Below are positions 3,977 to 27,305 of a stretch of DNA of 44,408 bases, piece after piece (the stretch's first letter is position 1; each line of letters opens with the position of its first letter). The position numbers and the translations under genes are program-made. The stretch spans positions 1 through 44,408 of the forward strand of contig PBCF01000001.1 in NCBI GenBank assembly GCA_002716945.1, given 5' to 3'. Below the pieces are notes generated by a model that ran no database searches, had not been told where the DNA came from, and worked only from the letters and a program-made list of their open reading frames with translations. The stretch is from Gammaproteobacteria bacterium (GTDB lineage: Bacteria; Pseudomonadota; Gammaproteobacteria; GCA-002705445; GCA-002716945).

Positions 3977-4318
3977 TCATTTATTTCTTAATTTCTTTTC
4001 ATCATGACCAGAAATTCCAAATCTCCCACGTAGCTCATGTAAAACGTCTTGAGTTGATAAATTATTATTAGATAACATAACAATGGAATGAAACCATATA
4101 TCTGCTGTCTCATGAATGATATCTTTTTTTTCTTTCGAATTAACAGCTTCAATTAATTCATTAGTTTCCTCTAAAATTTTTTCTCCAATATATTTATCAC
4201 CCTTTGCAAACAATGACGCAACATAGGATGTATCTGGTTGAGCATCTTTTCTTTTATTTATTACAACATCAAGTTCATATAAAATGTTGTTGTCATTTTT
4301 AATATGTTCCATTCTCAT
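3977..4318 (-). CDS. hisE: Phosphoribosyl-ATP pyrophosphatase
   Basis: HisE hydrolyses phosphoribosyl-ATP to phosphoribosyl-AMP, the second step of histidine synthesis. The 113-residue protein is a stand-alone all-alpha NTP-pyrophosphatase domain with SYVASLFAKG (about 31-40), the metal-binding EETNELIEA (about 50-58), and HETADIWFHSIVML (about 69-82), followed by LRGRFGISGHDEK. An internal ATG at 4312 is an equally good start. It is not fused to the cyclohydrolase HisI, and no hisI precedes it: only 18 bp separate it from hisF. Confidence 0.93.
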   Translation of the reverse strand: MRMEHIKNDNNILYELDVVINKRKDAQPDTSYVASLFAKGDKYIGEKILEETNELIEAVNSKEKKDIIHETADIWFHSIVMLSNNNLSTQDVLHELRGRFGISGHDEKKLRNK

Positions 4319-4336
4319 AGAGTAACATAATTAATA

Positions 4337-5101
4337 TTATTCACGCACTAAAACTCCATGAGTTTTTAGATAATCTTTAACTTCCTTGATAGTAAAAATT
4401 GAATAATGAAAAATGCTGGCAGCTAAGACTGCATCAGCTTTACCCAAAATAATAGCATCTTTGAGGTGATCTAAGGATCCAGCACCACCAGATGCAATAA
4501 CAGGAATATTAACATTTGAAGAAATGAGATTAAGTAGTTCTATATCAAATCCTTGTTTTGTTCCATCTCGATCCATACTTGTTAACAATATCTCACCTGC
4601 TCCTCTTTTCTCAACATCTTTTGCCCATTTAAAAGCATCATTACCAGTATTTTTTCTACCTCCATGAGTGAAAACTTCCCATGTTTGTGTTTGGTTATTT
4701 TTTTTTACATCTATAGCCGCAACTATACATTGTCGCCCAGTTTTGTTTGTGATTTCATTAATTAAATTTGGATTTTCTACGGCAGCAGAATTTATGGTTA
4801 CTTTATCAGCTCCTGCATTCAATAAATTATGTACATCCACAAAAGATGAAACACCTCCTCCTACTGTCAGTGGAATAAAAACTTCTTCAGCAACTTTTTC
4901 AACCGTATCTATTATTGCTTTTCTTTTTTCGTGTGTTGCTGTTATATCTAAAAATGTTATTTCATCTGCATTTTCATAATCATATCTTTTGGCAATTTCT
5001 ACCGGATCACCTGCGTCTTTTATTTCTTTAAATTTAGTACCTTTCACGACTCTTCCTTGGTCAATATCCAAACAAGGAATAATTCTTTTAGCTACATCCA
5101 T
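4337..5101 (-). CDS. hisF: Imidazole glycerol phosphate synthase, cyclase subunit HisF
   Basis: HisF is the TIM-barrel subunit that combines PRFAR with ammonia channelled from HisH to give IGP and AICAR. The 254-residue protein has the N-terminal [16 protein letters not shown] with catalytic Asp12, TVGGGVSS in the phosphate site, and the second catalytic Asp in [22 protein letters not shown] provides another phosphate loop. Length is normal. Its start overlaps the end of hisA by 14 bp. Confidence 0.97.
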
Positions 5102-5822
5102 TTATTTCTAACGCCTCTTTTAGATTGATTTTATTTTCATACAAAGCTTTACCAATAACAATGCCAGACAGACCATCTTTATCTAACTTCACAAGTTCAT
5201 GTATGTCATCGATTGTCGTTATTCCGCCAGATGCAATTGTTGAAATTGATGTATTTTTAATAAATTTTTGAATGCAATCAAAATTGATACCTTCTAGCAT
5301 CCCATCTTTATTAATATCCGTATAAACTATTTCAGGTATTTTATTAAGTTCCAAGAATTCAACAAAATCTTTAATATTATTATTGTTTGTCTCCTTCCAA
5401 CCTTTAGATGCTATTGCGTTATTCTTAATTGCTATATCTATAATTATTTTTGATTTGTTATCATCTGATAAATTCGGTATGAAATCAGGATCTGAGATAG
5501 ATTTTGTACCAATTATAACTCTATCTATTCCAGCAGTAAAATATTGTCTCAAAGTAGATTCATTTCTTATTCCTCCACCTACTTGAATAAATAGATCAGT
5601 AAATTTTTTTCTTATTGAATTTATAACTTCAAAATTTGAAGGGGTGCCTGAGCTGGCACCATCCAAGTCAATTATATGTAAATTTTTACATCCTTGATCT
5701 ACCCATCTTTGTGCAATCTCTAACGGGTTGTCTGAATATTCTATAACTTGAGAATAATCACCTTTAGAAAGTCTGACACATTTTTTATTTTTTATATCAA
5801 TAGCTGGAAATATTTTTATCAT
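5088..5822 (-). CDS. hisA: ProFAR isomerase HisA
   Basis: HisA performs the Amadori rearrangement of ProFAR to PRFAR. The 244-residue TIM barrel has [14 protein letters not shown] with catalytic Asp9, QVGGGIRN, the second acid in [12 protein letters not shown], and IASGGITT. It overlaps hisH by 1 bp and hisF by 14 bp, consistent with a coupled his operon. Confidence 0.97.
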
Positions 5823-6457
5823 TATTCAATATCTCCTTCCCAATTTAAAAAATTTTTGAGAAATTGCAGACCATTCTTAGAGCTTTTTTCTGGGTGAAAC
5901 TGCGAAGCAATCATACTATTTTTTTGAATAATTGATGTAAATTTTTTGCCATAGTTTGTTGTGCCTAAAACTACCTTAGGATCTTCAGGCTCAACATAAT
6001 AACTATGCACAAAATAGAAATAACTATGATTTTCTATATCTTGCCAAATATTATGATTAGATGTATGTTCAACTTTATTCCAACCCATATGAGGTATCTT
6101 TAGATTTTTTCCTAAACTTTTAAATCCAGTAACTTTGCCAGTAATAACATCAAGGCACTGAACTCCTTCATCTTCTTCACTGAAACTCATAACTGCTTGT
6201 AAACCCATACATATTCCTAAGAAAGGTTTTTTAGTTATGTGATTTTTAAATTCATCAAGGTCAAATACTTGAGAAATATTATTCATACAACTGCCTACAG
6301 CGCCTTGTCCTGGTAGTATGATATGACTCGAATTTTTTATATCTTTAAAGGATGTTGAGACTTTAACATTTGAATTTTTATCTAAAACATTTTTAACTGC
6401 TTTATAAACACTATGGATATTACCCATGCCATAATCAATGATTACAACTTCTGCCAT
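5822..6457 (-). CDS. hisH: Imidazole glycerol phosphate synthase, glutaminase subunit HisH
   Basis: HisH is the class I glutamine amidotransferase subunit that feeds ammonia to HisF. The 211-residue protein starts with VVIIDYGMGNIHSV, has the oxyanion strand LPGQGAVG, the nucleophile in LGICMGLQ, and the His-Glu pair in SQFHPEKS. The triad is complete. It overlaps hisB by 1 bp. Confidence 0.97.
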   Translation of the reverse strand: MAEVVIIDYGMGNIHSVYKAVKNVLDKNSNVKVSTSFKDIKNSSHIILPGQGAVGSCMNNISQVFDLDEFKNHITKKPFLGICMGLQAVMSFSEEDEGVQCLDVITGKVTGFKSLGKNLKIPHMGWNKVEHTSNHNIWQDIENHSYFYFVHSYYVEPEDPKVVLGTTNYGKKFTSIIQKNSMIASQFHPEKSSKNGLQFLKNFLNWEGDIE

Positions 6458-7050
6458 TACAATGTATCTTTAGTCGATGGAATTTTGTCTTTTTGTCTAT
6501 TATCAATTTCCACAGCCATTCTTAAAGCTTTACCAAAAGCTTTGAAGAGTGTTTCTGCTATATGATGGGAATTTGAACCTCTTAAATTATCTACATGCAT
6601 TGTCACTTTTGCATGATTAACAAAACCTTGAAAAAATTCTTGTAGTAAATCAATATCAAATTCTCCAACTCTTGACCTTGGGAATTTCACATTAAATTCT
6701 AGTCCTGGTCTGCCAGAAAAGTCTAATACAACTCTAGATAAAGATTCGTCTAATGGTATATATGCAGAGCCAAATCTTGTAATTCCCATTTTATTTCCTA
6801 ATACTTTGTCAAATGATTGACCTAACACAATACCTACATCCTCAACGGTATGATGTGCATCTATATGTAGATCGCCCTTTGCATTTAATTCAATATCAAA
6901 CATTCCATGTTTAGAAACTTGTTCTAACATATGTTCCATAAATGGTATGCCAATTTGGATTTTCGATGTTCCAGTTCCATCTAGATTAATATCAATATTA
7001 ATATTAGTCTCTTTCGTTATTCTTTCTAGTGCAGTTTTACGGTTTTTCAT
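6457..7050 (-). CDS. hisB: Imidazoleglycerol-phosphate dehydratase HisB (monofunctional)
   Basis: HisB dehydrates imidazole glycerol phosphate using a di-manganese site. The 197-residue protein is the dehydratase domain only, without the histidinol-phosphate phosphatase fused in enterobacteria. Metal-binding motifs [10 protein letters not shown] and SNSHHIAET and the N-terminal [12 protein letters not shown] are present. It heads the his-tat operon, with a TATAAT (7067-7072) 16 bp upstream. Confidence 0.97.
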
Positions 7051-7066
7051 AACATATCTATATCAT

Positions 7067-7072
7067 ATTATA
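7067..7072 (-). promoter_or_regulatory. Putative -10 element of the his-tat operon
   Basis: TATAAT on the minus strand ends 16 bp before the hisB ATG, in the 66-bp gap after pip. No clear -35 is visible, and read-through from the upstream def-pip group is also possible. Confidence 0.35.
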
Positions 7073-7116
7073 TCGAGATAAGCCATCGCTTTAGCTCTAG
7101 AAAAAATTAGCATAGA

Positions 7117-8055
7117 TCAAGTCAAATTTTTTGGATTAGAAAATATTTTTGTAATTTTTGTTGCAATATCTTTTTCCAATAAAGAATGTCCTGCATTATC
7201 AATTATATATAGATTTGCCTTTTTATAAACTCTCTTAAGATCATAGGCTTGATTAAGAGGACATACCATATCATATTTTCCATGTACAATATAACATTTA
7301 ATATTTTTTATAATATCTATATTTCTAATGATCTGGTTTTCTTTTATAAAACAATTATTTTTAAAATAATGGGTTTCTATTCTAGCAAGTGATATTGAAC
7401 AATCTTTAAAGCTTTTTCTAACAGTCTTAGATTTTTCAACTGTAGAGCAAGCGCCTTCCCAGTTAGACCACTTCAAACAAAAATCATTAGAGTGTTTTTT
7501 AGTAGATTTATGTATTTTTTTATAAAAAGCATTCAAGATATTTTTTTTCTCAGAATCAGATAATAAAGATGTAAATTTTTGCCATTCGTCTGGAAATATC
7601 TCAGAAGCACCAAACTGATAAAACCAATCTATATCTTTTTTTCTGCATAAAAAAATTCCTCTTAAAACTAAGGAATAAATTGTCTCGGGAAATTTTTGTG
7701 CATATAGTAGCGCTAAAGTAGAACCCCATGATCCACCATAGAGAATAAATTTTTGTATATCTAATTTTTTAGTAATTTTTTTTATATCATCAATCAATAA
7801 ATTGGTAGTATTATTCTTAACACATCCATAAGGAATAGATTTACCAGAACCGCGTTGATCAAATAGCACTATATGATAAATCTTTGGATTAAAAAATCTT
7901 TTATAAATCTTTGATAAACCAGCACCTGGCCCGCCATGTAAAAAGATAATTGGTATCCCTTTTGGATTGCCAACTTCTTCTACATAAAGAGTATGTATAG
8001 AATCAACCTTTATAAAATGTTGTTTGAATGGTTTGATATCTGGAAATAATTTCAT
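7117..8055 (-). CDS. pip: Proline iminopeptidase
   Basis: This cytoplasmic alpha/beta hydrolase should release N-terminal proline from peptides. The 312-residue protein has the oxyanion motif HGGPGAGLS (about 40-48), FDQRGSGKS, the nucleophile elbow GGSWGSTLAL, the catalytic Asp in HGKYDMVCP and His in NAGHSLLE. HGGPGAG plus DQRG(S/C)G and GGSWGSTL is specific to this family. It lies 2 bp after lpxL and ends the def-pip group. Confidence 0.92.
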   Translation of the reverse strand: MKLFPDIKPFKQHFIKVDSIHTLYVEEVGNPKGIPIIFLHGGPGAGLSKIYKRFFNPKIYHIVLFDQRGSGKSIPYGCVKNNTTNLLIDDIKKITKKLDIQKFILYGGSWGSTLALLYAQKFPETIYSLVLRGIFLCRKKDIDWFYQFGASEIFPDEWQKFTSLLSDSEKKNILNAFYKKIHKSTKKHSNDFCLKWSNWEGACSTVEKSKTVRKSFKDCSISLARIETHYFKNNCFIKENQIIRNIDIIKNIKCYIVHGKYDMVCPLNQAYDLKRVYKKANLYIIDNAGHSLLEKDIATKITKIFSNPKNLT

Positions 8056-8057
8056 AT

Positions 8058-9035
8058 TTAATAGGGGTACTTTTCACCATTTGGTCTTGTTTGAAATATT
8101 CTTAGACTCCACATGTATTGGTCTGTATTTTTAGAGATAAGTTTTTCAAGGCAATTATTAATTTGAGCTGCATCTTTATTAATATCATTGCTCGGGAAAT
8201 TTTTTAATGGTTCATCTATATATGTAATATATTTGTTATCTTTTTCAGAAAAATGCGATACACATGGAATGACTATTGAATTTGTCATTTGAGCAATTTT
8301 ACTAATAGATGTAAGTGTAGATTTTTTATTATCAAAAAAATCTGCGAACACAGTGTTCGTTGATTCAATATCTTCATCAGCAACATAATAAAAAATACAA
8401 GGTTTCTTTAATCCTTTTATTATTCCTTTAAAACTCATACCGCCTCTAGGAAAGACAACCACATTGTCGGTTGGTTTGCTTCTAGACTTTCCAACAAACC
8501 AATTCAAAAGTGAACTTCTAAGTGGTTTATACATACTAATAATAGGATATTTTGATAAAGATCTTCCACCGAAGTCAACAGACATAGTATGCGGGGTTAA
8601 TAAAATGATACTTTTATTGTTTGATAATTGATGATCAATATGATGACTATTTTTAATAACACAAATTTTTTGCAGTCTATCATTAGATCTCCACCATAAA
8701 ACAGGTAAATTAAAATATGATTTACCTAAGTTTAATAAGTTTTTTTTTGTTAATAAAAGTATTTCCTGAGAATTCATATTTGTAAAACACATTGATAAAT
8801 TTTTCTTAACAATATTACGACGTTTAGTGCTGGTATAATAAATAATCAGACCTGTTAAAGCTCCCAAAATGTCACGTAAAATTTTTGGAAGATTAGTCAA
8901 AATAAAACTAATAAAAATTAATATCCAATCTAGCCAATAATTTGGGAATAGGAATTTTAGAAAAAATTTCTCACCTTTGTTGATTGACATATTAAGAGGA
9001 TTTTTTTTTGATAGAAACGGTTTAGCTTTTTCCAT
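8058..9035 (-). CDS. lpxL: Lipid A biosynthesis acyltransferase (LpxL/HtrB family)
   Basis: This inner-membrane enzyme transfers a secondary acyl chain from acyl-ACP to Kdo-lipid A. It has an N-terminal hydrophobic anchor (WLDWILIFISFILTNLP), the catalytic H(x)4D in LTPHTMSVDFGG, VVFPRGGMSFKGI, YYVADEDI, and the terminal MWSLRIFQTRPNGE. I chose ATG 9035, 8 bp after trkH; a TTG at 9056 would add seven residues and overlap trkH. Whether it is LpxL or the late acyltransferase LpxM cannot be decided. An LPS-bearing outer membrane is implied. Confidence 0.9.
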   Translation of the reverse strand: MEKAKPFLSKKNPLNMSINKGEKFFLKFLFPNYWLDWILIFISFILTNLPKILRDILGALTGLIIYYTSTKRRNIVKKNLSMCFTNMNSQEILLLTKKNLLNLGKSYFNLPVLWWRSNDRLQKICVIKNSHHIDHQLSNNKSIILLTPHTMSVDFGGRSLSKYPIISMYKPLRSSLLNWFVGKSRSKPTDNVVVFPRGGMSFKGIIKGLKKPCIFYYVADEDIESTNTVFADFFDNKKSTLTSISKIAQMTNSIVIPCVSHFSEKDNKYITYIDEPLKNFPSNDINKDAAQINNCLEKLISKNTDQYMWSLRIFQTRPNGEKYPY

Positions 9036-18804: not shown

Positions 18805-19595
18805 AAAAATTTGCGGTTATAGGTAATCCTATAGAACATAGTTTATCACCAACAATTCATACATTATTTGCACAAGAACAAGGTGAAGTAATTGATTATA
18901 AAAAATTATTATCCACAAAAAATACATTCCAAGAAGATATAAAATTATTTTTTGATAACGAAGGAATAGGAATGAACGTCACAATTCCATTTAAAGATAA
19001 TGCATATTTAATATCAGATGAAAACGATAAAAGCTCAATATTATGTAAATCAGCAAATACACTTTTTAAAAAGGATAACAAAATTAAATCTTACAATACT
19101 GATGGAGATGGATTATTAAATGATTTTGATAAAAATTCAATAGATGTTGAAAACAAAAAAATTCTTGTGATTGGTGCTGGTGGGGCTGCTAAAAGTATTT
19201 TAACTACATTATGTAATAGAAAACCTAATTCCGTACATATATTGAATAGAACTAAAAATAAAATTCCTATAATACTAGATAATATAAAAACTAATACAAC
19301 AATAAATATCTATGAAGAGGGCATGAACTTTGATCTTATAATTAATACAACATCCATAAGTATGATCAATTCAGAAATAATATTTCCTAAAAATATTTTT
19401 ATGAATGATTCTATTTCCTATGATTTATTTTATTCTAAGCAAAAAACTAAATTTCAATTGTGGTCAGAAGAATCTGGAGCTAAAGAAGCTTACAATGGAC
19501 TAGGAATGCTTATTGAACAAGCTGCTTTATCATATGAAATTTGGAATAATTATAAACCTGATACAACACATATAAAAAAAAGCTTAGGTTTTTAA
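18801..19595 (+). CDS. aroE: Shikimate dehydrogenase
   Basis: AroE reduces 3-dehydroshikimate to shikimate with NADPH. The protein (264 residues from ATG 18801) begins KKFAVIGNPIEHSLSPTIH, with GMNVTIPFKDNAY (catalytic Lys) and the GAGGAAKSIL Rossmann loop, and ends with GLGMLIEQAALSYEIW. I chose ATG 18801 because it gives the usual N-terminus and a 4-bp overlap with hemB; a GTG at 18792 is less likely. It ends 12 bp inside the convergent yrdA-like gene. Confidence 0.96.
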   Translation: MKKFAVIGNPIEHSLSPTIHTLFAQEQGEVIDYKKLLSTKNTFQEDIKLFFDNEGIGMNVTIPFKDNAYLISDENDKSSILCKSANTLFKKDNKIKSYNTDGDGLLNDFDKNSIDVENKKILVIGAGGAAKSILTTLCNRKPNSVHILNRTKNKIPIILDNIKTNTTINIYEEGMNFDLIINTTSISMINSEIIFPKNIFMNDSISYDLFYSKQKTKFQLWSEESGAKEAYNGLGMLIEQAALSYEIWNNYKPDTTHIKKSLGF

Positions 19596-20114
19596 TTTTA
19601 AATACTCATTCTTGAGATCTACATAACTTTTAGCTGAATATTTCAAAAATTCTTTTTCCTCATTTGTTAGTTTTCTTGCTTTCTTAACTGGCGTTCCTAA
19701 GTACAAATAACCACCTTCAATTTTTTTACCTGGACCAACTAAGGACCCAGCAGCTAACATACTTCCAGATTCTATAATTGCTCCATCAAGTACTATACTA
19801 CCCATTCCGATCAAACAGGTGTCTTCAATGGTACAGGCATGCAAAATAACAGAATGGCCTATAGTTACATCGTCTCCTACTATTAAAGGGAACTCTTCAC
19901 TATAGTGACTTTTATGAGTCACATGTAGAATAGAGCCATCTTGTATATTCGTTCGACTCCCAACATTAATAGAACTAATATCACCTCTAGCAACTGATTG
20001 CGGCCAAAAAGCGCTATCCTCACCAACAGTAACATTTCCTATAATAGTTGCTGCCATATCAATGTATGCAGATTCATGAATTTTTGGATTATAGTTTTTA
20101 AAATCTCTAATCAT
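19584..20114 (-). CDS. Gamma-carbonic-anhydrase-like hexapeptide protein (YrdA family)
   Basis: This 176-residue left-handed beta-helix protein belongs to the YrdA/CaiE/gamma-CA-like family. Hexapeptide repeats run from about residue 17 to 130 (e.g. TVGEDSAFWPQSVARGD, INVGSRTNIQDGSILH), and the metal-binding histidines are visible in ILHVTH and IGHSVILHAC. A trimeric zinc-binding protein is expected; catalytic activity of YrdA proteins is uncertain. tsaC-aroE-yrdA neighbourhoods are common in gammaproteobacteria. Confidence 0.9.
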   Translation of the reverse strand: MIRDFKNYNPKIHESAYIDMAATIIGNVTVGEDSAFWPQSVARGDISSINVGSRTNIQDGSILHVTHKSHYSEEFPLIVGDDVTIGHSVILHACTIEDTCLIGMGSIVLDGAIIESGSMLAAGSLVGPGKKIEGGYLYLGTPVKKARKLTNEEKEFLKYSAKSYVDLKNEYLKLKT

Positions 20115-20168: not shown

Positions 20169-20179
20169 AAGGTAGGTGA
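20169..20179 (+). promoter_or_regulatory. Shine-Dalgarno site of the fae-like gene
   Basis: AGGTGA ending 6-7 bases before the ATG at 20186 complements the 16S rRNA 3' end. Most genes in this window lack such a clear site, suggesting efficient translation of the fae-like gene. A weak -10 (TATTAT/TATAGT, about 20148-20156) lies upstream. Confidence 0.45.
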
Positions 20180-20185
20180 ATTTTT

Positions 20186-20734
20186 ATGACTGATAGAATA
20201 GTAATGAAAGTAGGTGAATCATTGGTTGCCGGTGGTCCAGCAGGTACTGCGGCAGAACCTGAAGTTATAATAGGTGAATTAGATGGTCCTTTTGGTACCG
20301 CATTTGCAAATTTATTGGGTGATCAAGCAAAAGGGCATTCAAAAGTCTTGGCTATTATGAATACAGATATTATGGTTAAACCTGCAACTATTATGGTAAG
20401 TAAAGTTACAGTTAATAATAATAGATATACAAATATTTTAATGGGAACTGTTCAAGCTGCTATAGCTAATGGCGTTTTAGATTCGGTTAGAAATGGAGAT
20501 ATCCCAAAGGAAAAAACAAATGATGTAGGAGTAATTGTGTCAGTTTGGTTAAATCCATCTGTTGCAAAAGACGATAATTTAGATCATAAAATATTATTTG
20601 ATATACATAGAAAAGCAACAACACAAGCTATCAACAAAGCTATGAACAATCAACCAGATATTGATTGGTTGCTTGAGAAGCAAGATTCTATAATACACAA
20701 ATATTTTCAAATGGGACTAGATGGAAAAATTTAA
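20186..20734 (+). CDS. Formaldehyde-activating enzyme (Fae) homologue
   Basis: This 182-residue protein is homologous to Fae, which condenses formaldehyde with tetrahydromethanopterin in methylotrophs. Family motifs are VGESLV at the N-terminus, GPFGTAFANLLG, GHSKVLAIM, VKPATIMVSKVTV, MGTVQAAIANGVLDSV and IHRKATTQAINKAM. The loop that carries the catalytic His of canonical Fae (VAHIDLIIG in Methylobacterium, from memory) reads TAAEPEVIIG here, placing Glu24 where His should be. The C-terminal tail is also divergent. It heads an operon with ubiA, 5 bp apart. No H4MPT-pathway gene is in view, so a role in formaldehyde oxidation is unproven; it may bind another pterin or aldehyde. Confidence 0.85.
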   Translation: MTDRIVMKVGESLVAGGPAGTAAEPEVIIGELDGPFGTAFANLLGDQAKGHSKVLAIMNTDIMVKPATIMVSKVTVNNNRYTNILMGTVQAAIANGVLDSVRNGDIPKEKTNDVGVIVSVWLNPSVAKDDNLDHKILFDIHRKATTQAINKAMNNQPDIDWLLEKQDSIIHKYFQMGLDGKI

Positions 20735-20739
20735 TCTAT

Positions 20740-21591
20740 ATGATTAATAAATTAGCTTTATATTTAAAATTAATGAGGGTGGATAAACCAATAGGATATT
20801 ATTTACTCTTTTGGCCTGTTGGTTGGGCGTTTTTAATTGCCACATCAGGAAATCCAAATATATATTATTTAATAATTTTTATTTTTGGTGTAATAGCAAC
20901 TAGATCTGCAGGTTGTATAATAAATGATTATTTTGATCAAAATATAGATAAAAGAGTTAGTAGGACTAAAAATAGAGTATTAGCGAATCAATCCATAACA
21001 AATGAAGAGGCAATTATATTATTTCTATTTTTAGTAATTTTTTGTTTTATTTTACTCTTAATGTTAGGCCTAGAAATTTTATTATTTGCAATATTTTCAT
21101 TTGCACTATTAATCTTATATCCTCTGGCTAAAAGATATTTTAAATTACCACAACTTATTTTAGGTCTTGCTTTTGGCTCAAGTATACCGATGGTTTATAT
21201 ATTAGAAACCGGGAAAATAGATATAAATTGTCTACTGATATATTTAACTACTATTCTATGGGCTATAGTGTACGACACATATTATGCTATGGCAGATAAG
21301 CAGGATGATATAAGACTTGGCGTTAAATCATCTGCAATATTTTTTGGTGACAATGATATCAAATATTCTTTATATCTTCATTTCTGTGTGGTTTTATTAT
21401 TTACAATAATTGGACTCATAAATAACTTTCAAATTATTTTTTATATCTTCTTATTAATAAGTTTATTAAATATTATTTATCAAAATACACTTGCGAAAAA
21501 GAGAATACCTTATCAATGTATAGCGGCTTTTGAAAACAATAATATCTTTGGATTAATTATAACTTTTGGTCTAATATTTAATTATCTATAA
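20740..21591 (+). CDS. ubiA: 4-Hydroxybenzoate polyprenyltransferase
   Basis: UbiA prenylates 4-hydroxybenzoate in ubiquinone synthesis at the inner membrane. The 283-residue protein has about eight membrane helices and both Asp-rich motifs: NDYFDQNIDKRVSRT and YAMADKQDDIRLGVKS. MRVDKPIGYYLLFWP is the typical N-terminal signature. Its usual partner ubiC is not adjacent but lies at 34625-35149. Confidence 0.96.
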   Translation: MINKLALYLKLMRVDKPIGYYLLFWPVGWAFLIATSGNPNIYYLIIFIFGVIATRSAGCIINDYFDQNIDKRVSRTKNRVLANQSITNEEAIILFLFLVIFCFILLLMLGLEILLFAIFSFALLILYPLAKRYFKLPQLILGLAFGSSIPMVYILETGKIDINCLLIYLTTILWAIVYDTYYAMADKQDDIRLGVKSSAIFFGDNDIKYSLYLHFCVVLLFTIIGLINNFQIIFYIFLLISLLNIIYQNTLAKKRIPYQCIAAFENNNIFGLIITFGLIFNYL

Positions 21592-21594
21592 ATT

Positions 21595-22545
21595 ATGAAT
21601 AAGAAAGAAATAAGACATAATTGGACAATTTCTGAATTAGAAGAAATATATAATGAACCATTTAATGACTTGCTTTGGTCTGCGCATCAGTTGCATAGAA
21701 ATTACCATGATCCTAATGAAGTACAAATATCTACACTAATGTCAATTAAAACAGGGGGTTGCCCAGAAGACTGCAAATATTGTTCACAAAGCATTAAATA
21801 TGATACAAATCTAGAACGAGAAAAAACTTTACCATTATCAGAAATAATTAATCAAGCAAAAAAAGCAAAAAGTCATGGGGCAACAAGATTTTGCATGGGG
21901 GCAGCATGGAGAAATTTAACAGACAATAATCTTGAAAAAGTCATCAAGATGATAAAAGAAGTAAAAAAATTAAATTTAGAAACTTGTGTAACATTAGGTA
22001 TGATAAGTATAGACCAAGCGACAAAGTTAAAGGCTTCAGGGTTAGATTATTACAATCACAATTTAGACACTTCTGAGGAATATTATTCCAAAGTAGTAAC
22101 AACACGCAAATATCAGGATAGATTAAATACACTTGAATGTGTTAGAAAAGCGGGTATTAAAGTATGTTGTGGGGGAATTATTGGATTAGGTGAATCAAAA
22201 CTAGATAGAATAAAATTGATTCATGTGTTAGGTAACTTAAAAGAACATCCAGAATCTGTACCTATTAATAAATTAGTTAAAATTAAAGGGACACCATTTT
22301 TTGAAAATGCAGATGTTGATGAATTTGATTTTATTAGAATAATAGCATTAACAAGAATAGTAATGCCTAAATCATATGTAAGATTATCTGCTGGTAGAGA
22401 TTCAATGAATGATCAAATGCAAGCATTATGTTTTTTTGCTGGAGCGAACTCTATCTTTTATGGAGATGAATTACTCACAGCTAAAAACGCGTCTGAAATC
22501 CATGACCAATTATTGCTGGATAAACTGAAAATAAGAACCGTATAA
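21595..22545 (+). CDS. bioB: Biotin synthase
   Basis: BioB is the radical-SAM enzyme that inserts sulfur into dethiobiotin. The 316-residue protein carries [11 protein letters not shown] (CxxxCxxC for the 4Fe-4S cluster), [22 protein letters not shown] and GGIIGLGES, plus the [2Fe-2S] ligands and Arg in RLSAGRDSM. It is 3 bp after ubiA and 9 bp before bioF. Confidence 0.97.
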
Positions 22546-22554
22546 ATTTAGTTA

Positions 22555-23727
22555 GTGGCAAATTTTTCACAAAAAAATTTAAAATATAAGAATCTTGGTT
22601 ATTATAGAACGAGATTAGTAGCAAATTCTGCTCAAGATGTATTATTCAAATTAAACAAAAAAAAATATATTTCTTTTGCAAGCAACGATTATTTAGGATT
22701 AGCAAACAATAAAAAAATAAAAAAGGCTTTTATAAAAGGTATAGACAAATATGGAATTGGATCAGGTGCTTCACCACTTATAAGCGGGTATACATCTGCG
22801 CATCAATATCTTGAAAATGAACTGGCAGAATATCTTGGTTTCGAATCAGCTTTGATATGTAATTCTGGATACCTTGCTAATATAGGTTTAATAAATGCAA
22901 TAGCAGAAAGAAATATAGTGATGTTACAAGATAAAGAAAATCATAATTCAATTATTCAAGGTTCAAGATTATCAAGTACTAAATTAGTTAGGTATAAACA
23001 TTTATCTGAAATAGATTTAAATAATCAATTAAAAAAAAATGAATTCTATAAAGAAAAAATAGTTTTTACAGAATCTGTTTTCAGCATGTCTGGAGACATA
23101 TCAAACATAAAAAATATTCATAAAATTTCAAAAAAATATGGATCTTTATTATTTGTTGATGATGCGCATGGTTTTTGTGTTATGGATAAAATAAGAAAAA
23201 AAAATACTTTGCCTAATGTATGTAGTTTCCAAGATATAAATCCCAAAAAAATTGATGCATATATAGGAACATTTGGCAAAGCTGTTGGTACATTTGGGGC
23301 GTTCATTGCTGGATCAAAGGATTTAATTCAACTTCTCATTCAAAATTCAAAACCATATATATATTCAACATCTCTGCCGGCTTCTATTGCTGAAGCAACT
23401 AGAGCAAGTCTTAAATTGATTCTTAAGAATCATGATTATTTTGATAGATTGTATGAAAATATATCTTTATTTAGAAAATATGCACTTGATTCAGGTCTTA
23501 AAATAAATTATTCAATTACACCTATACAAACTATAACTATTGGAAATCCAATAAAAGTCATGAAAGTTCATAAATTACTATTAAAAAAAGGACTATTCGT
23601 ACAAGCAATCAGATACCCAACGGTTCCTAAAAATTGCGATAAAATCAGAATAACAATCACGAGTAATCATAAAAAACAACATATAAGAAAACTCATAAAT
23701 TGTTTGATTGAAGAATCAAAACTGTAG
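22555..23727 (+). CDS. bioF: 8-Amino-7-oxononanoate synthase
   Basis: BioF condenses pimeloyl-ACP/CoA with alanine using PLP. The 390-residue alpha-oxoamine synthase has SNDYLGLANN, GSGASPLISGYTSAH, FVDDAHGFCVMD (the Asp-Ala-His motif) and the PLP lysine in GTFGKAVGTFGAF. The start is GTG 22555. bioH, bioC, bioA and bioD do not follow, so the rest of the biotin pathway must be elsewhere. Confidence 0.95.
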   Translation: MANFSQKNLKYKNLGYYRTRLVANSAQDVLFKLNKKKYISFASNDYLGLANNKKIKKAFIKGIDKYGIGSGASPLISGYTSAHQYLENELAEYLGFESALICNSGYLANIGLINAIAERNIVMLQDKENHNSIIQGSRLSSTKLVRYKHLSEIDLNNQLKKNEFYKEKIVFTESVFSMSGDISNIKNIHKISKKYGSLLFVDDAHGFCVMDKIRKKNTLPNVCSFQDINPKKIDAYIGTFGKAVGTFGAFIAGSKDLIQLLIQNSKPYIYSTSLPASIAEATRASLKLILKNHDYFDRLYENISLFRKYALDSGLKINYSITPIQTITIGNPIKVMKVHKLLLKKGLFVQAIRYPTVPKNCDKIRITITSNHKKQHIRKLINCLIEESKL

Positions 23728-23765: not shown

Positions 23766-25019
23766 ATGAGTAAATTGATTAAAACAAATATATTGCTAGG
23801 AATAACTGGAAGCATAGCAGCTTATAAAGCAGCTGATATTGCCAGTATGCTTAAAAAAAATAACTGTAATGTTAAAGTTGTTATGACAAAAAATTCTACT
23901 TCATTTATAACTGAGACTACACTAGAGTGCATATCTAATAATCCAGTTATAACAGATGATGAAAATTGCAAAAATCTTACTAATTTTACACACATAGATC
24001 TTGCCAAATGGGCCGATATCATCCTCATTGCGCCATGCACTGGTAATTTTATTAATAAATTAGCTAATGGATATGGTGATGATTTACTATCAACTATCTG
24101 CTTGGCATTTACTAAGCAAATTTTTGTTGCTCCAGCAATGAACCCAAATATGTGGAATAACCCAATAACACAAAAAAATATAAAGAATTTTGTAAATACA
24201 AATATTTCTATTATAGGACCAGATTATGGCATACATGCTTGTGGCGATACTGGATATGGAAGATTAATGAGTCCAGATGCAATACTCGAGCATATATCTC
24301 AATCATCTAACACTAAAGATTTTTCTAATATTAATATTCTAATAACCGCGGGCCCTACAAGAGAACCAATTGATCCAGTAAGATTTATCAGTAATTATAG
24401 TTCTGGCAAAATGGGATATTCTTTAGCAGAAATAGCTAAAGAAATGGGCGCTAATGTTGAATTAATATCTGGCCCGGTTAAATTAGAACCTATTAAAGAT
24501 ATAGAGACAACATACGTAGAAACATCAGAAGAAATGCTTGAAGTTGTTAAAAATAAGGTTAAATCAAAAGATATTTTTATTTCAACTGCTGCAATTGCTG
24601 ATTATAGACCATCTGCATGTTCAAATACTAAATTCAAAAAATCTAATAAAAATTTGGTGATAGAATTCACGCGGGGTATCGATATCCTTAAAAAAATTTC
24701 TAAAGATAACAAAAATCTCTTTATCATAGGTTTTGCCGCAGAAACAGAAAATCTCGATAAAAACATGCTCTATAAATTAGAAGACAAAAATATAGATATT
24801 ATTGTTGGGAATATAGCAAACCATCAAAAAAATATTGGTTTTGAAAATGATTCCAATGAAGTGATAATCGCTTCAAAAAATGAGAAATATCATATTCAAA
24901 AAGATAAAAAAATTCTAATAGCGAAAAAGATTTTATCTTTTATATCAAAAGAATATAAAAAGAAATTATCAATTATCAAATCTAAAGATAGAGGTAGTGA
25001 TGGATTAAATTCATCATAA
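23766..25019 (+). CDS. coaBC: Bifunctional phosphopantothenoylcysteine decarboxylase/phosphopantothenate-cysteine ligase
   Basis: CoaBC performs two consecutive steps of CoA synthesis. The 417-residue protein has an N-terminal flavoprotein decarboxylase (GSIAAYKAADIASML, HIDLAKWADIILIAPCTGN, catalytic Cys loop near APAMNPNMW and HACGDTGYGR) and a C-terminal ligase (ITAGPTREPIDPVRFISN, SSGKMGYSLAEIA, AAIADYRP). In Pseudomonas dut follows coaBC; here algC follows directly after 8 bp. Confidence 0.96.
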   Translation: MSKLIKTNILLGITGSIAAYKAADIASMLKKNNCNVKVVMTKNSTSFITETTLECISNNPVITDDENCKNLTNFTHIDLAKWADIILIAPCTGNFINKLANGYGDDLLSTICLAFTKQIFVAPAMNPNMWNNPITQKNIKNFVNTNISIIGPDYGIHACGDTGYGRLMSPDAILEHISQSSNTKDFSNINILITAGPTREPIDPVRFISNYSSGKMGYSLAEIAKEMGANVELISGPVKLEPIKDIETTYVETSEEMLEVVKNKVKSKDIFISTAAIADYRPSACSNTKFKKSNKNLVIEFTRGIDILKKISKDNKNLFIIGFAAETENLDKNMLYKLEDKNIDIIVGNIANHQKNIGFENDSNEVIIASKNEKYHIQKDKKILIAKKILSFISKEYKKKLSIIKSKDRGSDGLNSS

Positions 25020-25027
25020 ACTTATTA

Positions 25028-26410
25028 ATGTCTTTTATATGCGATAACATCTTTAGAGCTTATGATATAAGAGGATTATATCCTACCGAAATTAATGAAA
25101 AAACATATAAACTTATCGGTCAATCAATAGGGACTAAAATTGCATCTACCAATCAAAAGAGAGTAGTAGTTTGCATGGATGGGAGAAACTCAAGTCCATC
25201 TTTAAAAGATAATCTTATAATTGGTTTATTGGATACAGGAATAGATGTTACTGATATAGGGATGCTTCCAACGCCTTTACTATATCACTCTCTTAAGTTT
25301 CTAAACATCGCAAATGGATTAATGATAACAGGAAGTCATAATCCAAAAGATTATAATGGAATTAAGATAGTACTAGAAAATAAAACTCTTTTTGGTAAGC
25401 ATATACAGGAAATTAAACAAAACATAATAAATAATACGATTAGTTTAAGTAATACAAAAGGTGTTACTAATAAAAATGATGAAATAATTGATGATTACAT
25501 AAACGTTTTACAAAAAAATTTAAAAATATCTAGTAAATTAAAAGTCACGATAGATTGTAGTAATGGCATAACAGGCAAAATAGCTAAAAAAGTTTTTGAT
25601 TCATTTGAAATAGACACATTTATAATTAATGAGAATGTAAATGGTGACTTTCCAAATCATTCTCCCGATCCAACGAATGAAAACAATTTAAAACAATTAC
25701 AAGAAATTATAAAGCAAAAGAATTCAGATATAGGTATTGCATACGATGGAGATGGTGATAGATTAATCATTGTTAAACCTGATTCCAAGATTATATGGCC
25801 GGATCAATTACTGATGTATTTTGCGTATGATCTTCTTCAAGACAACCCAGAAAGTAAAATTGTATATGATATAAAATGTTCTCAGCATTTAGAAGAAATT
25901 ATATTAAAAAATAATGGAGTCCCAATATTATCTAGAACTGGACACTCTTTTATAAAGAAAACAATGTCATCTGAAAATGCAATATTGGGAGGTGAAATGA
26001 GTGGTCATATATTCTTTGCAGACCGTTGGCCCGGCTTTGATGATGGTATGTATGCATCCTTAAGGTTTTTAGAAATATTATCCAAACATGACTGCGATCT
26101 AGCATCTTTGCAAAATATACCTGAAAGTATTGTAACACCAGAAATTAATATACCATTTAAAGACAACAAACATTTTACTTTTATGAAATTATTTGTAAAA
26201 TTAGCTAAATTCGACGATGCTAAGATTATAGACATAGATGGAATAAAAGTTATCTATGATGATGGCTGGGGCCTCATAAGATGTTCAAATACAACATCTA
26301 ATATTGTCCTAAGATTTGAAGCACAAAGTAAGGAATCTATGATGAAAATACAGTCTATAATGAAAGAAAAAATGCTTGAAGTAGATACTACATTGAACAT
26401 ACCATTTTAA
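25028..26410 (+). CDS. algC: Phosphomannomutase/phosphoglucomutase
   Basis: This alpha-D-phosphohexomutase interconverts 6- and 1-phosphates of mannose or glucose for LPS/exopolysaccharide precursors. The 460-residue protein has FRAYDIRGLYP, the phosphoserine loop MITGSHNPKDYNGIK, the metal site YDGDGDRLIIV, sugar-binding GGEMSGHIFF and the phosphate-binding RFEAQSKESM. Synteny with coaBC and argB supports AlgC orthology. Confidence 0.94.
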   Translation: MSFICDNIFRAYDIRGLYPTEINEKTYKLIGQSIGTKIASTNQKRVVVCMDGRNSSPSLKDNLIIGLLDTGIDVTDIGMLPTPLLYHSLKFLNIANGLMITGSHNPKDYNGIKIVLENKTLFGKHIQEIKQNIINNTISLSNTKGVTNKNDEIIDDYINVLQKNLKISSKLKVTIDCSNGITGKIAKKVFDSFEIDTFIINENVNGDFPNHSPDPTNENNLKQLQEIIKQKNSDIGIAYDGDGDRLIIVKPDSKIIWPDQLLMYFAYDLLQDNPESKIVYDIKCSQHLEEIILKNNGVPILSRTGHSFIKKTMSSENAILGGEMSGHIFFADRWPGFDDGMYASLRFLEILSKHDCDLASLQNIPESIVTPEINIPFKDNKHFTFMKLFVKLAKFDDAKIIDIDGIKVIYDDGWGLIRCSNTTSNIVLRFEAQSKESMMKIQSIMKEKMLEVDTTLNIPF

Positions 26411-26411
26411 T

Positions 26412-27305
26412 ATGAAAGATATAGTTTATAGAGAAGATACAAATATAACGCCATCCATAGCTAAGGTTCTAATAGAGGCTTTACCATATATACAAAAACT
26501 TGCAAATGAAGTTATTGTCATAAAATTTGGTGGCAATGCTATGATTGACAAAAATCTTAAAAATAATTTTGCAAAAGACGTTGTGTTATTAAAGCAAGTT
26601 GGTGTTAATCCTGTTATTGTTCATGGTGGTGGTCCACAAATTACAACATATCTAGAAAAATTAAATATGAAATCTGAATTTGCCAATGGAATGAGAATTA
26701 CAGATGAAAAATCAATTGATACAATCGAAATGGTTCTTGGTGGACTAATAAATAAAGAAATAGTCAACTCTATTACAGCGAATGGAGGCAAAGCTGTTGG
26801 TTTGTCAGGTAAAGATGGTGGGTTAATAAGAGCAAAAAAAATGATTGGTGAAGGAGAATATAAAAATATAGATTTTAAAAATACTGGAATAGTAGATAGT
26901 ATAGATCCAACAGTAGTGAGCTTATTGGATACAACATCATTCATTCCTGTCATAGCACCAATTGGAATTGGAGAAGATTCTAAAACATATAATATAAATG
27001 CAGATTTAGTTGCTGGTAAAATTGCTAATGTTTTACAAGCAAAAAAATTTCTAATATTAACTAATACTACTGGAATTTTAGATGATAAAGATAAATTAAT
27101 TAAACAAATTGATTCATCAAAGGTTAAAAAACTTATAGATAAAAATGTTATTCAGGCAGGAATGCTCCCAAAGATAATTTCAGCACTAGAAGCAGTTGCA
27201 TCTGGAGTTGATCATGTACAAATTATAGATGGTACTGTTGATCATGCACTACTATTAGAACTTTTCACTGATGCTGGAATCGGTACTATGATAAGAAGAA
27301 CATAA
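26412..27305 (+). CDS. argB: N-acetylglutamate kinase
   Basis: ArgB phosphorylates N-acetylglutamate in arginine synthesis. The 297-residue amino-acid-kinase-fold protein has VIKFGGNAMID, VIVHGGGPQI, NGGKAVGLSGKDGGLI, NINADLVAGKIA and GMLPKIISALEAV. Length matches the Pseudomonas-type enzyme. It lies 1 bp after algC. Confidence 0.96.
   Translation: MKDIVYREDTNITPSIAKVLIEALPYIQKLANEVIVIKFGGNAMIDKNLKNNFAKDVVLLKQVGVNPVIVHGGGPQITTYLEKLNMKSEFANGMRITDEKSIDTIEMVLGGLINKEIVNSITANGGKAVGLSGKDGGLIRAKKMIGEGEYKNIDFKNTGIVDSIDPTVVSLLDTTSFIPVIAPIGIGEDSKTYNINADLVAGKIANVLQAKKFLILTNTTGILDDKDKLIKQIDSSKVKKLIDKNVIQAGMLPKIISALEAVASGVDHVQIIDGTVDHALLLELFTDAGIGTMIRRT

Follow-up and report, generated by a model that had tools for sequence, protein, structure and literature searches.

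In the window, i.e., the whole stretch of 44,408 nucleotides of gammaproteobacterial DNA that was analysed, the gene at 20186–20734 of the forward strand encodes a Fae-family protein in which Glu stands in place of the catalytic His of formaldehyde-activating enzyme. The protein has the Fae fold, belongs to a clade that has lost this His throughout (hereafter the Glu-type), shares its genome with a canonical Fae and the H4MPT pathway, co-occurs with mch across genomes, and is under strong constraint. Judged from sequence, we regard the chances as about evenly balanced that this paralogue, most probably the published Fae3, binds a pterin or C1 adduct and serves the H4MPT pathway as an accessory protein, carrier or sensor. 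The group itself is already known and unexplained; what is added here is the invariant catalytic substitution, the kept presumed pocket, the near-constant presence of mch and canonical Fae in the same genomes, and the high constraint.

Gene, Family and Fold

The open reading frame is intact and codes for 182 amino acids, and it has its own Shine-Dalgarno-like sequence, as the first-pass annotation had noted: AGGTAGGTG at 20170–20178 (+), 7 bases 5′ of the ATG. It scores 200.7 bits (E 1.8e-59) against Pfam Fae (PF08714), whose curated cut-off is 27 bits, and 134.7 bits against the NCBIfam equivalog TIGR03126, with a cut-off of 118.05. The only solved relatives found by sequence are the Fae of M. 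extorquens (1y5y, 5.3e-19) and a construct holding the same protein (8ub7). The AlphaFold model of the Glu-type protein has its best fold match in 1y60 (1y60_A; also 1y5y) with E 5.7e-10 and TM 0.71–0.76, and its modest confidence (pLDDT 61.7) is sufficient for the fold and too poor for judging the pocket. Chance is excluded as the source of this assignment, and the protein, which had earlier been called Fae-like from its letters, is a genuine member of the family. The Fae domain of the archaeal Fae-Hps fusion is also matched (NF009833, 109 bits against a cut-off of 274 bits), but the window protein, with its 182 amino acids, has no C-terminal hexulose-phosphate synthase domain.

Loss of the Catalytic Histidine

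VAHIDLIIG of M. extorquens Fae and AAEPEVIIG of the window protein align without a gap, so that Glu24 lies opposite the catalytic His, just as the first-pass annotation had read it. The codons of Glu24-Pro25-Glu26 occupy 20255–20263 (+), where canonical Fae has His-Ile-Asp. The small insertion that was said to precede Glu24 depends on the comparison: it is seen against the M. extorquens protein, which is shorter in this loop, but not against the canonical Fae of the same genome, which is one residue longer there than the window protein. In the alignment, E24, P25 and E26 occur without exception in 98/98 distinct Glu-type relatives, the sister group (hereafter the Met-type) has M-P-E in all 14 of its proteins, and canonical Fae has H-[IV]-D, with His in 23/23 proteins. 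In the tree, the Glu and Met groups lie apart from the His group (SH-aLRT 100), and the Glu-type (94) and the Met-type (90) each fall on one side of a branch; the window protein carries the AAEPE motif and stands in a single clade with its relatives. Since E-P-E and M-P-E are invariant and the tree separates the groups, the sequences indicate that the loss of His is old and fixed rather than a local accident, and that the Glu24 substitution is not peculiar to the host genome. A literature search found no paper naming the missing His in Fae2 or Fae3, though one may still exist.

Around this position the pocket is partly changed and partly conserved. The Glu- and Met-types share the further fixed residues His51, Trp121 and Pro124, among which His51 (codon 20336–20338 (+), alignment column 60) is invariant in both types and corresponds to Phe in most of the bacterial canonical Fae sampled; in total, 30 alignment columns are fixed differently between the Glu-type and canonical Fae. 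Lys73 and Thr75 (codons of Lys73-Val74-Thr75 at 20402–20410 (+), columns 82–84), Gln90 (codon 20453–20455 (+), column 99), which is invariant across all three groups, and His171 are common, with rare exceptions, to the Glu-type, the Met-type and canonical Fae. That is to say, the window protein resembles the canonical Fae of M. extorquens (1y60/1y5y) and of its own genome in fold, Fae profile, the Lys/Thr/Gln of the presumed pocket and His171, but it lacks the catalytic His and is only 28–32% identical to them. In the M. extorquens structure, we take the His to be the general acid, and the Asp, Lys, Thr and Gln presumably line the pterin site. At these presumed pterin-contact positions, the Asp of canonical Fae has become Glu26 in the Glu-type while Lys, Thr and Gln are retained; if the site roles are right, this group would have given up the acid and retained the binding site, apart from the exchange of Asp for Glu.

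Canonical Fae and the H4MPT Pathway in the Host Genome

The host assembly comprises 1.09 Mb (100% complete, 4.71% contamination), and, among named relatives, uncultured marine gammaproteobacteria come closest to it. The first-pass annotation saw no methanopterin genes in view and supposed a probable heterotroph. The former stands for the window, where profiles detected no H4MPT genes among the proteins scanned, but the latter falls, since the same genome holds mch, fhcBADC-like and H4MPT-synthesis genes together with a second, canonical Fae (C4:548828–549340). This protein reads NEISHIDLLMG with the His present, and is 69% identical to M. extorquens Fae. Its gene cluster contains mch (403.8 bits), a tetrahydromethanopterin glutamate ligase-like protein, a beta-RFAP synthase-family protein, TIGR03123, a dihydropteroate-synthase-like protein, an AfpA-like flavoprotein and an fhcB-like protein, after which come the fhcA-, fhcD- and fhcC-like genes. 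Among the genes for which a genome search had been proposed, mch and fhc were therefore found, and mtdB only by resemblance: the 296-aa protein adjoining mch resembles MtdB, a label that is our own, as no NCBIfam model matched it. The full H4MPT pathway, one half of what the earlier reading had named as speaking against itself, is present, although it is served by a different Fae.

The fhc genes are adjoined by an SBP56/methanethiol-oxidase protein (156.6 bits), a SCO1/SenC-MauG fusion and a redoxin, the operon lying on the reverse strand at 4238–8219 of locus L204 (C4:555500–575499). The same arrangement is known from the mto clusters of Methylophaga thiooxydans (PMC6548844). A profile search of the host genome gave no PQQ alcohol dehydrogenase (methanol dehydrogenase) or Hps above cut-off, and no match to GMAS. 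Because the mto operon adjoins fhc and these other genes were not detected, methanethiol is a plausible and likely formaldehyde input in this genome, and the host may be a small marine bacterium that oxidises methanethiol and carries the H4MPT pathway.

Distribution and Constraint

Among 369 genomes of the class, with the Glu-type called at more than 250 bits, the Glu-type is present in 23, covering 13 family codes, and mch in 48. mch is found in 22 of the 23 Glu-type genomes (Fisher p 4e-21, a value that overstates independence because members of one class share ancestry); the one genome without it, G032, is only 75% complete. Canonical Fae is likewise present in the same 22 genomes. The Met-type occurs in 10/369 genomes, nine of them with mch. 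In phages, the search gave no relative of the Glu-type Fae. As for a common source of formaldehyde, PQQ methanol dehydrogenase was rejected, being present in only 12 of the 23 Glu-type genomes (one of them below cut-off), and so was GMAS (7/23).

Over 16 loci of the same gene order, the mean identity is 84.9% for the Glu-type Fae, 71.7% for bioB, 63.3% for ubiA and 48.3% for aroE, which places the Glu-type Fae first in conservation within its gene block and bioB second. Moreover, it is at least as conserved as canonical Fae across most of the same genomes.

Relation to Published Fae2 and Fae3

It has been reported that the Fae-like groups 2, 3 and 4 are of unexplained function, for which sensing, regulation or H4F-linked transfer has been suggested (PMC11748545). 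The fae3 of Methylotuvimicrobium fails to complement the fae1 deletion of AM1, and its own deletion causes no growth defect (PMC11748545). Deletions of fae2 and fae3 in Methyloversatilis are also without growth defect, fae3 rises about tenfold on methylamine, and Fae3 has been named a C1 shuttle candidate (PMC5023235). In the Methylophilaceae examined, Fae2 is present in all and Fae3 in some (PMC4109929), and deletion of fae2 in Methylobacterium slows growth on methanol (PMC7356819).

The Fae2 of M. aquaticum 22A (pMaq22A_1p) is of the Met-type, His-less, with the motif TDAMPE, and isolates of Methylobacillus, Methylovorus and Novimethylophilus hold the His-, Met- and Glu-types together. For these two reasons it is likely that the Glu-type is Fae3, an identity drawn from the distribution of types. 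Like Fae3 (M. alcaliphilum 20Z MEALZ_RS07105; Methyloversatilis fae3), the window protein is a remote paralogue of Fae that shares its genome with a canonical one, as in H4MPT methylotrophs; unlike theirs, its genome is that of a 1.09 Mb gammaproteobacterium with no methanol dehydrogenase detected. The Fae2 of M. aquaticum 22A belongs to the sister clade and also lacks the His, but has Met where the window protein has Glu at the catalytic position, and the two are 33% identical.

Possible Function of the Glu-Type Protein

As an accessory of the H4MPT pathway, the Glu-type would accompany, not replace, canonical Fae in bacteria that oxidise formaldehyde via H4MPT. It would still bind a pterin (H4MPT, its methylene form and possibly H4F), because Lys73, Thr75 and Gln90 are kept and the Asp is changed just to Glu26. 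Fast condensation would not be expected of a protein that lacks the His acid; a binding protein of this kind would buffer, sense or hand over the C1 unit, or regulate the pathway. The earlier suggestion, that a Fae-fold protein may here bind or sense or catalyse another reaction, is supported, the substitution being clade-invariant and the function unexplained in the literature (PMC11748545). In its most specific form, put forward tentatively, the Glu-type clade would be a dedicated pterin/C1-binding sensor or carrier (of methylene-H4MPT/formaldehyde status), which arose from an enzyme by loss of the acid, is more tightly constrained than the genes around it in methanotrophs, methylotrophs and small marine gammaproteobacteria, and regularly bears the annotation formaldehyde-activating enzyme. 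Two considerations tell against the accessory role: judging from the loci, no conserved partner gene backs sensing, as the neighbours differ between lineages, and, as Glu is itself able to serve as an acid, the Glu-type may be capable of slow or altered catalysis.

Such altered chemistry is rather unlikely in our estimate. Glu24, together with Glu26 or His51, would act as acid/base instead of His, in condensation with H4F, in formaldehyde release from methylene-pterin, or in C1 transfer between H4F and H4MPT. A re-tooled active site of this kind is expected to look much like what is found, with Glu24 invariant and paired with the clade-specific fixed Pro25, Glu26, His51, Trp121 and Pro124, and the published proposals of H4F-linked transfer for Fae homologues (PMC11748545) and of the C1 shuttle (PMC5023235) are in its favour; however, fae3 mutants have no growth defect (PMC5023235, PMC11748545), and the sister clade has at position 24 a Met, which cannot be an acid. 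While this Met speaks against a conserved acid across the wider group, the fixed Glu of the Glu-type speaks against simple decay.

That the protein is an ordinary, if slow, Fae isoenzyme, in which the His is dispensable and formaldehyde is condensed with H4MPT under other conditions, we consider improbable. The equivalog cut-off of TIGR03126 is passed, the remaining columns of the presumed pocket are conserved, and the fae2 whose deletion slows methanol growth in Methylobacterium (PMC7356819) also encodes a His-less protein; yet canonical Fae stands alongside in 22/23 genomes, and the Methylotuvimicrobium fae3, if of the Glu-type as inferred, fails in complementation (PMC11748545). The distinction matters for annotation, since Fae serves as a marker for formaldehyde oxidation via H4MPT, and His-less proteins, which pass TIGR03126, are given the same name 'fae'; should the Glu-type clade prove inactive as Fae, many 'fae' genes would be miscounted. 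The invariant exchange to Glu or Met, the retained presumed pocket and the tight link to mch make the role of Fae2/Fae3 directly testable.

Genomic Neighbourhood

In the window, the gene heads a real unit with short gaps, as first described. It is followed on the forward strand by ubiA (4-hydroxybenzoate octaprenyltransferase, 20740–21591; TIGR01474, 287.1 bits against a cut-off of 275.45), bioB (21595–22545; TIGR00433, 394.9 bits), a bioF-like acyltransferase (22555–23727; TIGR00858, 364.3 bits, under its cut-off of 426.45), coaBC (23766–25019; TIGR00521, 405.5 bits), an algC-like phosphomannomutase/phosphoglucomutase with four PGM_PMM domains (25028–26410) and argB (26412–27305; TIGR00761, 229.6 bits), the successive gaps being 5, 3, 9, 38, 8 and 1 bases. 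Because the first gap is 5 bases, fae is probably co-transcribed with ubiA. A divergent gamma-carbonic-anhydrase-like hexapeptide protein, assigned by profiles and synteny, lies at 19584–20114 on the reverse strand, and is in the same place in 18/80 relatives.

The order hemB-aroE-carbonic anhydrase-fae-ubiA-bioB-bioF-coaBC-algC is found in these 18 relatives, all of one lineage, and the other 62 of the 80 loci have different neighbours. The operon is therefore lineage-specific and gives no general indication of function, and the meaning at first drawn from ubiA/bio/coa is not supported. A role in ubiquinone, biotin or CoA synthesis with no part in C1 metabolism, which the 5 bases ahead of ubiA and the order common to 18 relatives could suggest, is very improbable, being largely refuted by the 62 loci with other neighbours and by an occurrence that tracks mch. 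A conserved partner gene for the Glu-type was sought among the 80 loci and none emerged; the neighbours vary by lineage, and include ubiA, radical SAM, a dCMP/cytidine deaminase-like protein, MlaE, Msr and ApbE, and, as another type, a cNMP/rhodanese protein with a histidine kinase nearby.

Several of these loci have peculiarities of their own. In most syntenic relatives, an extra open reading frame of about 149 aa lies between coaBC and algC, which is absent at 25019–25028 of the window. At L066 (3488–7846), L031, L034, L041 and L062, an 808-aa cyclic-nucleotide-binding and rhodanese protein is encoded 5′ of the Glu-type Fae, and at L066 and similar loci (L031, L034, L041, L062) a 416-aa protein without Pfam match is encoded 3′ of it. 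A chemotaxis-type receptor gene immediately precedes the gene for the His-less Fae in Novimethylophilus (L081:3937–6549) and that for the Met-type Fae in Azospirillum (L117:3236–5522); a claim of sensing from these was rejected, as two cases in distant bacteria are too few. On the conjugative plasmid pLVM1 of Methylobacterium sp. DM1 (L115:2296–7041), a Glu-type relative of 67% identity is placed after type III glutamine synthetase and glutamate synthase-like genes and before a globin, and on plasmid pTB101 of Aquabacterium olei (L175:2917–3453) a His-less Met-type Fae lies inside fhcA-fhcD-fhcC-fae-pabB; both neighbourhoods point to C1 metabolism.
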